Shown in pieces: positions 9,993 through 19,530 of a DNA stretch of 25,711 nt (positions are counted from its first letter, which is position 1; every line of letters begins with the position of its first letter). The notes under the pieces were generated by a model, which was not told the origin of the DNA, searched no databases, and saw nothing but the letters and a program-made list of their open reading frames with translations. The stretch is taken from the IMG/VR virus record IMGVR_UViG_3300042344_000204, positions 1-25,711 of that record; one strand, 5' to 3'. The DNA is from a virus. Both the position numbers and the translations under genes were made by a program.

Positions 9993-10196
9993 ATGGAAAA
10001 TTCACCAGCGGAAACTACTGTTGCGCCTATTAAGGCTCAACATGTGGTTGAAGATACTTATCTTGATCTTGAAACAAAAGAAATTGTGAAAGTTTGGGAT
10101 AACACTACAAGCAGATATCGGGTTGGCGATACAGAGTTCAGCGTTTTAGTTGATTCAAAAGCCTATCAGACAGTAAATGCCCGCAAATCCTCTTGA
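9993..10196 (+). CDS. small hypothetical protein
   Basis: 67 aa with an ATG and GGAAGG about 9 nt upstream. The sequence ('VVEDTYLDLETKEIVKVWDN' then 'RYRVGDTEFSVLVDSKAY') looks like a small all-beta domain. No known motif. The 3' end overlaps the DUF3168-like gene by 20 nt. Its place between the gp10-like and tail-terminator genes suggests a late structural or assembly role, but I cannot name one. Confidence 0.6.
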   Translation: MENSPAETTVAPIKAQHVVEDTYLDLETKEIVKVWDNTTSRYRVGDTEFSVLVDSKAYQTVNARKSS

Positions 10197-10611
10197 TGCA
10201 ACTTATGCCTTAAAAGCGGCTGTAAGAACTGCCTTACTTGCTAACTCAACATTATCGACAACGCTTGTTGGCCTTAAAGTTGTAGATCTAGCTCCATCCA
10301 GCCACCCTACGCCGTATATTTCTATCGAAACGCGATCAAATGATTGGTCAACCGCGACAGAAGACGGTCAAGAAATACTTTTAGATATTAACGTCTGGCA
10401 CCAACCAGCAAGCCAGACTCCAGAAACAGTAACAGCGCGTAATTTAATGAGTGAAGTTAGGGTTGCGCTTCATACGGCGTCCCTATCTTTAGAAGCGCCG
10501 TTTAACTGTGTGCAAATCAGGGTTGATAACATGATTGGGCCATACCGTGACCCTGACGGAATGACACTACATGGTGTCGTTAGTGTTCGCGCATTGGTCG
10601 ATCATAGCTAA
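10177..10611 (+). CDS. tail terminator / completion protein (DUF3168-like)
   Basis: 144 aa. The N-terminal helix 'ALKAAVRTALLANSTLSTTL', the strand 'TPYISIETRSNDWSTATEDG' and then 'ILLDINVWHQPAS' with the helix 'ARNLMSEVRVALHTA' follow the order of DUF3168 tail-completion proteins, which cap the tail tube and join it to the head. Its position immediately before the tail-tube gene is where this family usually sits. The start at 10177 lies inside the preceding gene without a visible Shine-Dalgarno, so it may depend on translational coupling. Confidence 0.8.
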   Translation: MPANPLDATYALKAAVRTALLANSTLSTTLVGLKVVDLAPSSHPTPYISIETRSNDWSTATEDGQEILLDINVWHQPASQTPETVTARNLMSEVRVALHTASLSLEAPFNCVQIRVDNMIGPYRDPDGMTLHGVVSVRALVDHS

Positions 10612-10629
10612 TTCAAAGGAGTGATTTAA

Positions 10630-11073
10630 ATGGCTGGTCAAACTGGTCTTACATGGGCTTTAAGCGTTAGAACAGCAGCTACGCCTACATATACGGCAAT
10701 AGCAGGGATTCGTACTCGTAGCTTTAAAATTAATAATAACCCGGTTGATGTTACAACGGCTGAATCAACTGGCCGTTGGCGTGAACTACTTGGCGATACT
10801 GGAATTGTTGAGCTTGAGATTGACGCTAGTGGTCTTTACCAGAAAGACGCTCCGGGTCATCTTCTTCCGTCGCTAGTTGTTTCTGGCGCTTCAACGATAT
10901 TCCAACTTGTGTCTGCTTCTACCTCTGCAGGCATTACGATTGTTGGCTCGTTCATCGTTAGTGAATACGAGGCAGCAGCCACTTACAATGAGGCCGCGAC
11001 CTTCACGGTTAAGTTGATGTCAACTGGCGCTCCAACCATCACTTATAGCCCGGTTGCTACGACTCCGGCCTAA
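10630..11073 (+). CDS. major tail tube protein, copy 1
   Basis: 147 aa, TP901-1/phiE125-type major tail protein. Landmarks: 'IAGIRTRSFKINNNPVDVTT' (24-43), 'WRELLGDTGIVELEIDASGL' (50-69) and the C-terminal 'YNEAATFTVKLMSTGAPTIT'. It should polymerise into the tail tube around the tape measure. A near-ideal AAAGGAGTG precedes the ATG, fitting a protein needed in many copies. A paralogue follows after 35 nt and shares almost the whole length, differing mainly by one inserted domain. Confidence 0.88.
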   Translation: MAGQTGLTWALSVRTAATPTYTAIAGIRTRSFKINNNPVDVTTAESTGRWRELLGDTGIVELEIDASGLYQKDAPGHLLPSLVVSGASTIFQLVSASTSAGITIVGSFIVSEYEAAATYNEAATFTVKLMSTGAPTITYSPVATTPA

Positions 11074-11108
11074 TTAACGCTGTGATTGTAAAATTAACGA
11101 GGTAATAA

Positions 11109-11789
11109 ATGGCAGGCCAGACAGGAGCGCTTTTCGCGCTAGGCGTGAGAACGACAGGCGGGGGCTCTCCTGTCTATACTAACATTGCTGGCCTTAGAAC
11201 AAGATCGTTTAAGATCAGCAATAATCCTGTTGATGTTACAACTTCGCCAAATGCGTTTTTCTCGTGTTTGGCTACTATCGCATCATCTTCTGTAACGCTT
11301 CCAACCACGTTTTCCGATGGATCATCAGTCTCAACTGTGACTGGCTTTTACATAGGCGAAAACATTATCGTTGGTGGCGTTGCTTATCCTGTTACTGCCT
11401 ATAATGGTGGAACGCGAGTAGCTACTGTCACAGGAACGCCAACAGCCGGAAGTCAGTCAATTCAGATTGGAAACCCGGCATCAACGGATAATTGGCGCGA
11501 GCTTCTTGGTGATACAGGAACTGTTGAGCTAGAGATTTCTGCCGCTGGCCTTTATCAAAAAGATGCGCCAACACATTTGCTTCCTACGCTCGTTGCTTCT
11601 GGAGCAGATCAGGTATTTAGATTGGTTTCTAGTAATGTAACGCCCGGCATTACGATTGTGGGTAGTTTTGAAGTTACTGAATATGAGATGACGGCGACAT
11701 ATAATGAAGCTGTAACCTTCACTGTAAAGCTGATGTCAACCACTTCACCAACAATTACTTATAATCCTGCGGCGACAACCCCTGCTTAA
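11109..11789 (+). CDS. major tail tube protein paralogue, copy 2 with inserted domain
   Basis: 226 aa, a paralogue of the gene before it: same start (MAGQTG), same 'GLRTRSFKISNNPVDVTT' (28-45), 'WRELLGDTGTVELEISAAGL' (129-148), 'LYQKDAPTHLLPTLVASGA' and C-terminus. Between VDVTT and WRELL, where copy 1 has only about six residues, it carries about 80 extra residues (46-127). This Ser/Thr/Gly-rich beta stretch contains 'GFYIGENIIVGGVAYPVTAY' and resembles small beta domains found as surface insertions in phage structural proteins. The tube may be mixed, or this copy may serve a special position. Ribosome site GAGG; codon choice differs widely from copy 1, so the duplication is old. Confidence 0.87.
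   Translation: MAGQTGALFALGVRTTGGGSPVYTNIAGLRTRSFKISNNPVDVTTSPNAFFSCLATIASSSVTLPTTFSDGSSVSTVTGFYIGENIIVGGVAYPVTAYNGGTRVATVTGTPTAGSQSIQIGNPASTDNWRELLGDTGTVELEISAAGLYQKDAPTHLLPTLVASGADQVFRLVSSNVTPGITIVGSFEVTEYEMTATYNEAVTFTVKLMSTTSPTITYNPAATTPA
11244..11489 (+). other. inserted domain in tail tube copy 2
   Basis: Approximate DNA limits of the extra segment between the shared VDVTT and WRELLGDTG blocks. Its position is inferred by eye-aligning the two adjacent tail tube proteins. It encodes a Thr/Ser/Gly-rich beta-like domain ending in 'IQIGNPASTD'. Confidence 0.75.
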
Positions 11790-11799
11790 TTGAGGCTTT

Positions 11800-12174
11800 A
11801 TGGCTAATAGAGCGCGTGGTTATGCCGATGTATGTATCGGCAATGAAACATTTGAACTTGCTTTTGGTTTAGGCGTTTTAGCTGAAATCGAAAGCGAGTT
11901 TGATGTTGAATCATTTGAAGAGGCGCTTGACTTTGGAGACAAGGTTAGCGCCTCACGGCTTCGCAAACTCATGTTTGCGTTGTTGCGTGGAAATGAAGTT
12001 GAGCTAACGCCAGAACGCCGCAGGGCAGTCGATATGATGTCTCCTGCTGACTTTATGGAAAAGCTAACAGCCATAACTGGTTCATCTCCATTAACGCAGC
12101 AGCAAACACAAGAGCCAAAAGAAAAGGCGACCAAAACCCCTTTTCGGGCAAGGAACGCTGGCAGACGTGGATGA
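11800..12174 (+). CDS. tail assembly chaperone, upstream frame (GTA gp10-like)
   Basis: 124 aa. 'NETFELAFGLGVLAEIESEF' (15-34) followed by 'ASRLRKLMFALLRGNEVELT' (50-70) and 'ADFMEKLTAI' is the pattern of GTA-gp10-type tail proteins, which act as tape-measure chaperones. After residue 95 the sequence becomes a Gln/Lys-rich linker. The stop forms an ATGA overlap with the next gene. A slippery heptamer at 12138-12144 would allow a -1 shift into that next frame, giving a longer chaperone as in the lambda G/GT pair. GAGG precedes the ATG by about 6 nt. Confidence 0.82.
   Translation: MANRARGYADVCIGNETFELAFGLGVLAEIESEFDVESFEEALDFGDKVSASRLRKLMFALLRGNEVELTPERRRAVDMMSPADFMEKLTAITGSSPLTQQQTQEPKEKATKTPFRARNAGRRG
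12138..12144 (+). promoter_or_regulatory. candidate -1 programmed frameshift site C CCT TTT
   Basis: CCCTTTT fits X XXY YYZ in the frame of the upstream chaperone (zero-frame codons CCT at 12139, TTT at 12142). A -1 slip keeps pairing as CCC TTT and continues at TCG (12144), reading SGKERWQTW into the downstream gene's frame. That frame is open from 12051 to 12377 and has no ATG before 12171. The fusion would be 192 aa. A perfect 7-bp hairpin GTTAGGC/GCCTAAC lies at 12182-12202, further away than the usual 5-9 nt spacing of stimulatory structures. Confidence 0.7.
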
Positions 12175-12377
12175 AATTAGGGTTAGGCCATTTACGCCTA
12201 ACGCCTGACGCCTTTTGGCGCATGACGCTGACAGAGTTCTTCGCAGCTATTGACGGATATTTAGAAAGCAAGGGCGTCCGTAAGGGCGGGGGCGAATTAG
12301 AAGCGCCAACGTCTGAAGAAGTCGAAGCCCTATTTGCTGAATTAAACAAACAAAACAAGCAGGAACAAAATGGCTGA
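12171..12377 (+). CDS. tail assembly chaperone, downstream frame (phage TAC-like)
   Basis: 68 aa if it starts at the ATG at 12171 (ATGA overlap with the preceding stop). 'LGLGHLRLTPDAFWRMTLTE' (3-22) and 'FFAAIDGYL' match the small tail assembly chaperones that follow GTA gp10-like genes. In that family this motif is usually preceded by extra residues including a Trp; here those residues (ERWQTW) are encoded in the same frame upstream of the ATG and would be reached by the -1 frameshift from the preceding gene. It overlaps the tape-measure gene by 8 nt, which fits a role in keeping the tape measure soluble. Confidence 0.82.
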   Translation: MKLGLGHLRLTPDAFWRMTLTEFFAAIDGYLESKGVRKGGGELEAPTSEEVEALFAELNKQNKQEQNG

Positions 12378-14334
12378 AGCTGTTGCCGGAAGTCTCGTAT
12401 ATCAGTTTAAAGCTGATATTGCAGATTTAAAGAACGGCTTTGCCAATATTCAGACTGAGCTATCTAAGGTAAAGTCTGGTATTGGAACTGTTAATGATAA
12501 TTTTAAAAGTGTTGGCAAGGGCGCCTCAGAAAGCATTGGTCTTGCCAGACATGAAATGATTAATTTGTCTCGCCAAGTTGCAGACGTCGGCGTTAGTCTT
12601 GCTAGTGGTCAAAGTCCTTTTATGGTTTTGATTCAGCAAGGCGCTCAGATAAAGGATGTATTTTCTTCTAGTAAGGCTACATTTGCAGGATTAGCAGCAC
12701 AATTCATTACTGTCGGCAATATAGCAAAGATTGCCGCGCTTGGAATTGTCTCTATAGGCGCTGCTGCCTACTCAAGCCTTTCTAACTTAGAAAAGCTATC
12801 TGAGACAGCTAAGACGCTCGGAACAAATACACAGGCGCTTAGAGGGTTTAATCGTCAGGCATCTATTTTAGGCGTTGATCCTAAAGAATTAAATGAGCAA
12901 ATGGTCGCTCTTGCGCAACGAATACGCGAGGCGCAAACATCTGGCGGCGAATTAGCTGAAAAACTTGGCCGGATTGGCATTAATATAAAATCATTTGATC
13001 TAAGTAAGCCCGGCGAGTTTGCTCGGTTATTTGCTGAAATTGCGGAAAAGGTTCGCAATGGATCAAATGAAATTGATAAGTTAAATGCTTTAAAACTAAT
13101 CGGCTTTTCTTCTGAAATGCTTCGCGTATTTAGTGAGGGCGGGGCAGCGATTGATACATTTGTTAATAAATCTCGAGACGCCGCAGAAAATTCCACCACA
13201 CCTATTCGTGATAAGTGGAAAGAATTAAGAACATTATGGGATGAAATAGCAAATGCAATAGGTCAAAAATCTATTGATATTATTTCTAGCATTGTTGACT
13301 TTGTTAAAGATGCAATCAATCAAATAAATTCAGTTATAGATTATGTTAAAAGTAAATTTAACGAGCTTACAACATTTAAGTTTTCTGATGAAAAAGGGAT
13401 GGTTACAAACGGTGCCGGATCTTTAAGTAATTACGAAAACCGTTTAGGACTTCAAGATAAGCAAAAACTACCTGACATTAATATTAATGCGGCTTCTAAA
13501 CCAAAATCTGTCGATCTAAGTGGAATTTACAGCCTGCCCAAATCAAAAATGGATAAAGGCGTAGGTTCTCAAGTTGATCCATTAAAATCTTATATTGATA
13601 GCCTTAAAGAAGCCGCCGCAGTTTCTAAAGCAGAGGCAGATAATTGGGCGCTTGGTAATGTCGAAAAGGCAAAAGCTGAAGCACTCGCTAAAGCTAACGT
13701 CATTGCATCAAGAGAAGGTAAGACGCTTACCGATGGTATGCGCGATACAATTACGCAGTATGCAACGGGCGCTGCACAAGCAAAACTTCAAGTAGACAAT
13801 TTAAGAACGGCTCAGCAGGGGCTTAACCAGCTAATGAGCCAATTTGCTGATACAGCTATAAATGCCTTTGATGGTCTTATGGATCGCAGCAAGCGCATAA
13901 CAGATGTGTTGCGTGACCTAGTTAAAATGCTGGCTAATAACGCTTTAAAGGGCGCTTTAACGGGCGACGGCGCTTTTGGTCAGATGATGGGATTAGGCGG
14001 CAAAAACGGTAATACAGGTGGAATTTTGGGAATGCTTGGCGGCGCGGCAAAGTCGATGTTCGCAGGTTATTTTGCAGAAGGCGGGTCTATTCCATCTGGC
14101 AAATGGGGCATAGCTGGAGAAGCAGGGCCAGAGCTCATTCAAGGCCCGGCAAATATCATCCCTATGAATAATAATGGTGGATCTAAAATCACCATTCATA
14201 ATTATGCCAATGCCGAAGTTGATGCACGTCAAATGAGTGACGGGCAGATCATTGTGACTGTGCAAAAGATGATCAAAGACGGTTTGCGTCAGGTTCCGAA
14301 TATAATGGCTGAAGCACAACGGCGGTCTATTTAA
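12370..14334 (+). CDS. tail tape measure protein
   Basis: 654 aa. The N-terminal 60 residues are helical (YQFKADIADLKNGFANIQTE), followed by 'ARHEMINLSRQVADVGVSLA' and 'SPFMVLIQQGAQIKDVF' (about 60-98), the lambda-type tape-measure block, and a hydrophobic stretch about 104-137. A long helical, AT-rich, Lys/Asn-rich middle follows. Near the C-terminus 'FAEGGSIPSGKWGIAGEAGP' and 'ELIQGPANIIP' is the typical closing motif. It sets tail length and is expelled at infection. At about 0.15 nm per residue it predicts a tail near 100 nm (inference). The start overlaps the chaperone gene by 8 nt. Confidence 0.93.
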   Translation: MAEAVAGSLVYQFKADIADLKNGFANIQTELSKVKSGIGTVNDNFKSVGKGASESIGLARHEMINLSRQVADVGVSLASGQSPFMVLIQQGAQIKDVFSSSKATFAGLAAQFITVGNIAKIAALGIVSIGAAAYSSLSNLEKLSETAKTLGTNTQALRGFNRQASILGVDPKELNEQMVALAQRIREAQTSGGELAEKLGRIGINIKSFDLSKPGEFARLFAEIAEKVRNGSNEIDKLNALKLIGFSSEMLRVFSEGGAAIDTFVNKSRDAAENSTTPIRDKWKELRTLWDEIANAIGQKSIDIISSIVDFVKDAINQINSVIDYVKSKFNELTTFKFSDEKGMVTNGAGSLSNYENRLGLQDKQKLPDININAASKPKSVDLSGIYSLPKSKMDKGVGSQVDPLKSYIDSLKEAAAVSKAEADNWALGNVEKAKAEALAKANVIASREGKTLTDGMRDTITQYATGAAQAKLQVDNLRTAQQGLNQLMSQFADTAINAFDGLMDRSKRITDVLRDLVKMLANNALKGALTGDGAFGQMMGLGGKNGNTGGILGMLGGAAKSMFAGYFAEGGSIPSGKWGIAGEAGPELIQGPANIIPMNNNGGSKITIHNYANAEVDARQMSDGQIIVTVQKMIKDGLRQVPNIMAEAQRRSI

Positions 14335-15095
14335 TGCGTGATCCCACAATCGCTCTATGGCCAGATAACTTAGTTCCAATGAATATGACGGTGACGATTG
14401 ATCGTCCTGTCTTTAAGGGGCCAAAACCATTAGACGGTCGAGAGCAAGTTGTCGCGTCATCGTCGGGCGGGTGGTTAATATCTTACGAGGGTATTCCAGT
14501 TCATGGTAATAAATATCGCCAGTTTCGTTCTATCTGGTCTGCTATAGGCGCATTCGCTAAGCCTATATATGTAAAGCCAGAATTTTCGCCAAATATGCTG
14601 GCGAAGCGTAACGGTATATTACCTCAAACCACATATTTTGATCAGATCGGCACTTTAAAGAATGTTTTAGAATGGGCTTTAGCTGAACTAACGTGGGGAG
14701 GCGGCAACCCATTATGTTGGGGAACAACAGGAAGTGGTTGGTCAGATTTTCAAGATGGCGCAGTTTTTACTCAGTCAACTGGTGATTGCTATTTAAAATC
14801 TAGTGCGGTGCGCGGTGACGTTTATATCAGCGTAGAAAATTCCGCAGTCTCAAATTTAGAGGCTGGTGACTATTTTGAGATTAATGGCCGCTTACACCTT
14901 GTTCAAGGTATAGATGGCGACTCTTGGAGTATTTGGCCGCCTCTGCGTCAAAGCTATCCGTCAGGCACACAGCTTGAGATAGATGACCCGCGCATGGTTG
15001 GTTATCTCGTTACGGACTCAAGAGCTTTGTCTTTGTCAAACGACTTTGGCCGGGTTTCTCGCGTATCTGTTGACTTCATTGAGGCTAACTGGTGA
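14334..15095 (+). CDS. distal tail / tail tip protein (gp12 position)
   Basis: 253 aa, mainly beta. It starts in a TAATG overlap with the tape measure. Features: 'GGWLISYEGIPVHGNKYRQF' (45-65), 'LQTTYFDQIGT', a Gly/Trp-rich loop 'WGGGNPLCWGTTGSGWSDF' and 'AGDYFEINGRLHLVQGID' (a beta-barrel-like strand pair). The order tape measure, this gene, a second tip gene, a small Cys protein and a hub is that of GTA-type and many siphovirus tail tips, so this is probably the distal tail component attached to the tube end. No exact family recognised. Confidence 0.7.
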   Translation: MRDPTIALWPDNLVPMNMTVTIDRPVFKGPKPLDGREQVVASSSGGWLISYEGIPVHGNKYRQFRSIWSAIGAFAKPIYVKPEFSPNMLAKRNGILPQTTYFDQIGTLKNVLEWALAELTWGGGNPLCWGTTGSGWSDFQDGAVFTQSTGDCYLKSSAVRGDVYISVENSAVSNLEAGDYFEINGRLHLVQGIDGDSWSIWPPLRQSYPSGTQLEIDDPRMVGYLVTDSRALSLSNDFGRVSRVSVDFIEANW

Positions 15096-19176: not shown

Positions 19177-19530
19177 ATGATTGAGGAACTGATCGCGCGT
19201 ATATTTGCGCTGCGAGACTATACCTATTTGCGCCACTGGGCGGAAAGAAATGGGGAAGCTCACAGGGCATTAGCATATTTTTACGACGCCATATCAGATG
19301 CGCTTGATCCATTCGTTGAGCAGTATCAAGGCTTGTTTGGCTTAATAGGCGAAGTTCCTGTTATTTCTATTCGATCTGGATTCTTAAGCGATGAAATAAG
19401 AGCACAGCGCGAATGGATATTAGCCAACATTGATACAATCACAAAAAATGATCCGCAGCTTGTGAATGAGTTGCATGGAATTTGCGCAATTTACGCTAAG
19501 ACACTCTACACGCTCGACTTCTTGGAATAA
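19177..19530 (+). CDS. small helical phage protein (DUF5856/Dps-like resemblance)
   Basis: 117 aa, mostly alpha-helical, placed between fibre genes. 'YTYLRHWAERNGEAHRALAY' then 'FYDAISDALDPFVEQYQGLF' (15-55) has the 'HW----G-AH-AL--FYD' spacing of short ferritin/Dps-like phage proteins (DUF5856, from memory). In Dps, His, Asp and Glu at such places bind iron. No DNA-binding tail is visible. GGAG about 10 nt before the ATG supports the start. It could be an accessory structural or metal-binding protein; function unproven. Confidence 0.65.
   Translation: MIEELIARIFALRDYTYLRHWAERNGEAHRALAYFYDAISDALDPFVEQYQGLFGLIGEVPVISIRSGFLSDEIRAQREWILANIDTITKNDPQLVNELHGICAIYAKTLYTLDFLE

Follow-up and report, generated by a model that had tools for sequence, protein, structure and literature searches.

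A tandem pair of tail tube genes, the second with an insertion in its predicted ring-to-ring loop, suggests a phage tail of plain and domain-bearing subunits

The window analysed here is a whole 25.7 kb virus record from IMG/VR (25,711 nucleotides) and has a phage-type structural gene order, in which genes for terminase, portal, head morphogenesis, prohead protease, capsid, head-tail adaptor, head closure and neck proteins are followed by those for the terminator, two tube proteins, two chaperones, tape measure, distal tail protein (Dit), hub/fibre proteins and endolysin. The tube gene pair is situated between the tail terminator and the chaperone and tape measure genes, the usual location of PF06199 tube genes (Table 1). 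Pfam and PHROG profile searches recognised no sheath gene in the window's tail module, which indicates that the tail is non-contractile. The nearest named relative, ctOK67 (L004, MW202613.1), is titled Myoviridae, yet its tail module is in the same siphophage/GTA order as the window's and has no annotated sheath within the stretch read. Elsewhere in the window, an ORF just upstream of the terminase genes (685-1944) joins a ParB-like N-terminal part to a C-terminal part of DNA methyltransferase type (phrog_498, E 1e-109), and a gene among the tail genes (19177-19530) matches phrog_858, a starvation-inducible transcriptional regulator (E 4e-11). Relatives of the window were found neither in the bacterial genome collection nor among plasmids.

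Table 1. Features of the tube gene region, with positions in the window.
Feature	Position	Strand	Remarks
Tail terminator, Tail_completion_gp17 type	10177..10611	+	PF11367 E 2e-18; phrog_176; upstream of copy 1
Copy 1 ribosome-binding region (AAAGGAGTGA)	10612..10629	+	anti-SD duplex -9.5 kcal/mol
Copy 1, plain tail tube protein	10630..11073	+	147 aa; PF06199 85.4 bits; RcGTA 6tba E 1.8e-12
Spacer and copy 2 ribosome-binding region (CGAGGTAA)	11074..11108	+	anti-SD duplex -7.3 kcal/mol
Copy 2, domain-bearing tail tube protein	11109..11789	+	226 aa; PF06199 53 bits, in two stretches
Insert, beta2-beta3 loop	11247..11492	+	copy 2 residues 47-128; 77 net extra residues; from alignments, model strands and hhalign
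Tail assembly chaperone, GTA gp10-like (weak)	11800..12174	+	PF11836 E 0.008; phrog_2115 E 1e-5
Second tail assembly chaperone	12171..12377	+	PF09550 E 1e-9; start overlaps preceding stop
Tape measure protein	12370..14334	+	654 aa; PF06791 E 9e-21; phrog_8892
Distal tail protein (Dit)	14334..15095	+	phrog_1302 E 1e-12

A sequence-only reading of this DNA had described two adjacent tail tube paralogues with a common core, and both open reading frames are indeed found at this place, each scoring above the curated PF06199 cut-off of 23.8 bits; the best solved relative of copy 1 by sequence is the tube protein of the Rhodobacter capsulatus GTA (RcGTA; 6tba). The two genes are separated by 35 bases and each has a Shine-Dalgarno-like site, that of copy 1 being the stronger in the window, but not in two of its relatives (L008 and L009). 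BLASTP aligns the copies in two collinear blocks of 70% identity each (E 3e-53) that break at VDVTT, where about 80 extra residues had been claimed for copy 2; by alignment there are 77 at this insert, and another two in an N-terminal loop near residue 18 make up the net difference of 79 residues. The C-termini of the two proteins align and the insert is internal. A frameshift origin of copy 2 was ruled out, as it is a separate complete gene. When the insert is left out of the comparison, protein identity between the cores is 73.5% and DNA identity 65.1%, and synonymous sites are saturated, in agreement with the wide DNA divergence noted earlier.

Structure prediction supports a tube fold for both copies, the monomer models matching tube proteins with moderate confidence over most of the core and poor confidence in the insert (pLDDT ~40-55). 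The model cores resemble GTA, monocin and lambda tube proteins; that of copy 1 matches 6tba/8qhs, and Foldseek matches both copies to 9j1j, 8qhs and 6toa (copy 2 VIA Z ~9). Consecutive strands are predicted at residues 21-34 and 62-71 of copy 1 and at 22-38 and 139-150 of copy 2, with the insert between the latter, in the position of the beta2-beta3 loop. Because confidence in the insert is poor, the model says no more than that it is probably mostly beta. In major tail proteins this loop folds onto the ring below and makes most of the ring-to-ring contacts, and T5 pb6 no longer forms tubes once such loops are deleted (PMC8718954), so that an 80-residue domain at this site is unusual; both RcGTA (PMC7296036) and R4C (PMC10276861) have a long loop that touches the following disc or Dit. 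Among the tube decorations covered by the reviews consulted, that of YSD1 is placed between alpha1 and beta4 (PMC8718954) and the others are at the C-terminus.

A small set of close relatives was taken from IMG/VR scans, their ORFs read and the neighbouring genes placed. These show three states of the tube locus within one conserved gene order. A single short tube gene is present in ctOK67, and a tandem of two short genes in L012 (with the same second copy in L014) and L013. A short gene followed by a long one is seen in the window and L006, whose proteins are identical, in L008/L019, in L009/L020, and in L010, whose contig opens inside a copy 1, of which 22 C-terminal residues remain (95% identical), and continues into the long copy. 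The long copy of L007 and of L011 is near a contig end, and the more distant tube proteins of L016-L018 and L036 are without the insert. The short-long pair recurs in contigs whose copy 2 proteins differ by ~20% and is therefore neither chance nor an assembly artefact; a chimeric assembly is ruled out on the same grounds. An ancestral insert lost from copy 1 was also considered and rejected, since ctOK67, all of the short relatives and RcGTA lack it. The description of the insert as an addition in copy 2 thus holds up against its own counter-test, in which the extra segment would be a regular feature of the family that copy 1 lacks. From the series of single, short-short and short-long loci, and with the short forms all free of the insert, it is shown by gene comparison that the insert was gained by the second-copy lineage and not lost from copy 1.

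The four long forms group together in the protein tree (86/98). The tree gives no order for the duplications, and the second copies of L012 and L013, both short, may or may not be direct orthologues of the long copy; a TGGGSP loop common to the L013 second copy and the window's long form gives only a hint that these two are akin. The tandem insert-free tube genes of L012 (1997-2904) and L013 (1687-2613) have 82-84% protein identity, with a synonymous distance that is saturated or near-saturated.

Comparison of copy 1 orthologues between the window and L008/L009 gives an omega of ~0.026, and the corresponding values are 0.09-0.12 for the copy 2 cores and 0.06-0.11 for the insert, all of them rough because synonymous distances are high. 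Across these coding sequences purifying selection is shown on copy 1, on the copy 2 core and on the insert, less strongly in copy 2, and together with the synonymous saturation this bears out the earlier view that both copies have been kept for a long time. Copy 2 could still be a redundant duplicate that adds dosage or is drifting, and that carries an insert tolerated without a specific role, as ctOK67 lives on one copy, short-short pairs exist and copy 2 evolves faster than copy 1. We consider this unlikely, however, given that the copies have diverged to synonymous saturation and yet both frames and the insert are constrained, whereas a useless tandem copy should vanish; the selection data therefore disfavour a relic of useless duplication.

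The earlier reading had also proposed a homology search with the insert residues. Such searches yielded nothing above threshold in Pfam, PHROG (best E 0.5) or PDB sequences and no convincing match among phage records, where the sole tblastn match was no better than chance (Mx8, E 9) and the insert of a relative gave no match. The wording of the insert (YVGE..IVGGTSYPITAYNGTTRVATV in relatives) is like a phrase of phage structural proteins, and a presumed consensus of that phrase served as a probe for the module (consensus TAQAG..TTITL..YNG..I.ITSGTGAGQ.R.I.DYVG.T.VATV). The probe fetched real instances, including T4-like gp8 proteins, a Microcystis phage tail protein and 80 IMG/VR loci, and the profile test was built only from such real sequences and not from the probe consensus. 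A profile of 18 instances aligns with the insert profile at an hhalign probability of 88-90% and a score of 34.4, compared with 20.1 for the best of 300 column shuffles and 9.8 for the reversed profile (cyclic shifts of the insert profile are unusable as a control because the alignment is local). By HMMER, three of the four insert variants score above all 2000 shuffles, and the window's own insert scores weakly, at 9.8 bits, a value exceeded by 3 of 2000 shuffles. The aligned part spans 45 columns, the GTGxGQ loop is shortened and the WTTTPDATS end is left unaligned, so the insert does not match the module as a whole. Its most likely identity is thus that of a divergent relative of the module seen in tail fibre/hub, spike and baseplate proteins; it is at most that, and we do not count it as a member of the module.

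The module itself (TAQAG..TTITL..YNG..ITSGTGAGQ.R.I.DYVG.TKVATV..WTTTPDATSTY) is beta-rich and is shared by phage proteins that are otherwise unrelated (tail, spike, fibre and T4-like gp8), at L050-L129 (about position 1501 in most) and L044-L048. It was not found in Pfam, PHROGs or the PDB, and none of the 18 members individually matches Pfam or PHROGs.

We see about an even chance that copy 2 provides a second tube subunit, which would assemble together with copy 1 and present the inserted module. Copy 1 would then be the plain tail tube subunit, and copy 2, from the same gene cluster, would display a small beta-rich module in its beta2-beta3 loop, giving a tube with plain and module-bearing subunits that either form rings of their own or share rings. 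The module would most likely lie on the outside near the ring joints, where it may provide weak multivalent contact with the cell envelope or stiffen the joints. The body needed for tube formation seems to be kept in copy 2: 84 of 150 core columns are invariant across all twelve genes compared and 99 of 150 within the short forms, so that the copy 2 core retains 84 of the 99 short-form invariant columns, and the fixed differences between long and short forms number three (T8L, S12G and D65S in copy 1 numbering). Co-assembly is also consistent with the purifying selection on core and insert, with the separate ribosome-binding site of each gene, with the relationship of the insert to a module of tail fibre/hub, spike and gp8 baseplate proteins, and with the lack of a recognised sheath gene whose product could collide with outward-facing domains. 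Against it, an 80-residue insert in the ring-contact loop may block normal stacking (PMC8718954), and the insert is poorly modelled. An insert able to block stacking would suit a regulator, and copy 2 might accordingly be an assembly factor, or an alternative tube protein replacing copy 1 under some conditions; this we regard as very unlikely, since its tube core is nearly unchanged and the two genes are neighbours in a single cluster that shows no sign of alternative regulation.

The conserved copy 2 core supports the co-assembly reading, as do precedents in SPP1, the lactococcal 936 phages and Hcp. As in the window, SPP1 has two tube proteins with a common core, one of them with an extra domain, in one siphophage tail (PMC8718954, PMC9022992), and its virion contains gp17.1 and gp17.1* at 3:1 (PMC8718954). 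In SPP1, however, both come from one gene, the longer through a frameshift that adds a C-terminal FN3 domain, whereas in the window each protein has its own gene and the insert is internal, in the ring-to-ring loop; copy 2 is thus not a frameshifted form with a C-terminal Ig-like domain. Some tube subunits of the 936 phages similarly bear an extra, cell-binding extension, TpeX, although this is C-terminal, made via a frameshift, and is a BppA-type carbohydrate-binding module (PMC6669499). The Bacteroides fragilis Hcp2-Hcp3 heterohexamer provides separately encoded paralogous tube proteins in mixed rings, but in type VI secretion and tied to effector loading (9vne; PMC13323088). YSD1_22 has an extra domain inside a tube protein from a single gene, with Domain2 placed between alpha1 and beta4 and stabilising the ring (PMC8718954), and RcGTA g9 is of the same family and gene order as the window's tube genes but is a single gene without the insert (6tba/6tea, PMC7296036). 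A tube-like core with an inserted peripheral domain is also found in Dit (PMC7296036, PMC10276861), which differs in building the distal ring and has its own gene in the window.

The main rival to a mixed tube is a single special ring of copy 2 at one end of the tail, where it would act as an adaptor or anchor tip proteins; we judge this to be rather improbable. Contractile systems have tube paralogues as special rings near the baseplate, such as T4 gp48/gp54 and Pvc5. The best place for such a ring would be as the first on Dit, because the long loop faces the ring below and the lowest loop meets Dit, and the insert does lie in the loop through which the RcGTA (PMC7296036) and R4C (PMC10276861) tube proteins contact the adjoining disc or Dit. 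Relative to the window, however, the single-copy ctOK67 (Dit 79.4% identical, terminator 74%) is as close as the duplicated relatives (78-79% and 72-75%), so no matching change is seen in the partners, and the presence of the insert is not tracked by Dit, terminator or tape measure, an independence that also fits a tube of two subunit kinds. As evidence against a special ring the Dit and terminator comparison is weak, since such interfaces may not change. The short-short pairs, with unaltered loops in both copies, also speak against it. The tape measures of L009 (4032-6663) and L010 (1163-3959) are 36% identical to that of the window over 745 columns, and these phages with diverged tape measures keep Dit 79% identical.

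Returning to a tube of two subunit kinds, we infer that both proteins would be present in virions and co-assemble in some ratio, with a module that would be exposed outwards and may bind. The pair suggests a tail of plain and domain-bearing subunits. It is possible, at somewhat under an even chance, that this is a siphophage-type tube built from two separately encoded paralogues with a mobile module in the ring-to-ring loop, forming hetero-rings or a patterned tube with the modules at the joints. Searches of the open-access literature found no siphophage described as having separate tandem tube genes of this kind. In most descriptions the tail tube is a homopolymer, and in the known decorated mixtures a frameshift adds a domain at the C-terminus; here the tube would instead be decorated through duplication of its gene and an insertion in the stacking loop. 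Because one lineage shows the single, short-short and short-long states in a conserved gene order, the steps to a heteromeric tube can be traced. The position of the insert, in a loop thought to be necessary for stacking, offers a direct test of loop tolerance, and its sequence points to an uncatalogued beta module common to many phage tail proteins.
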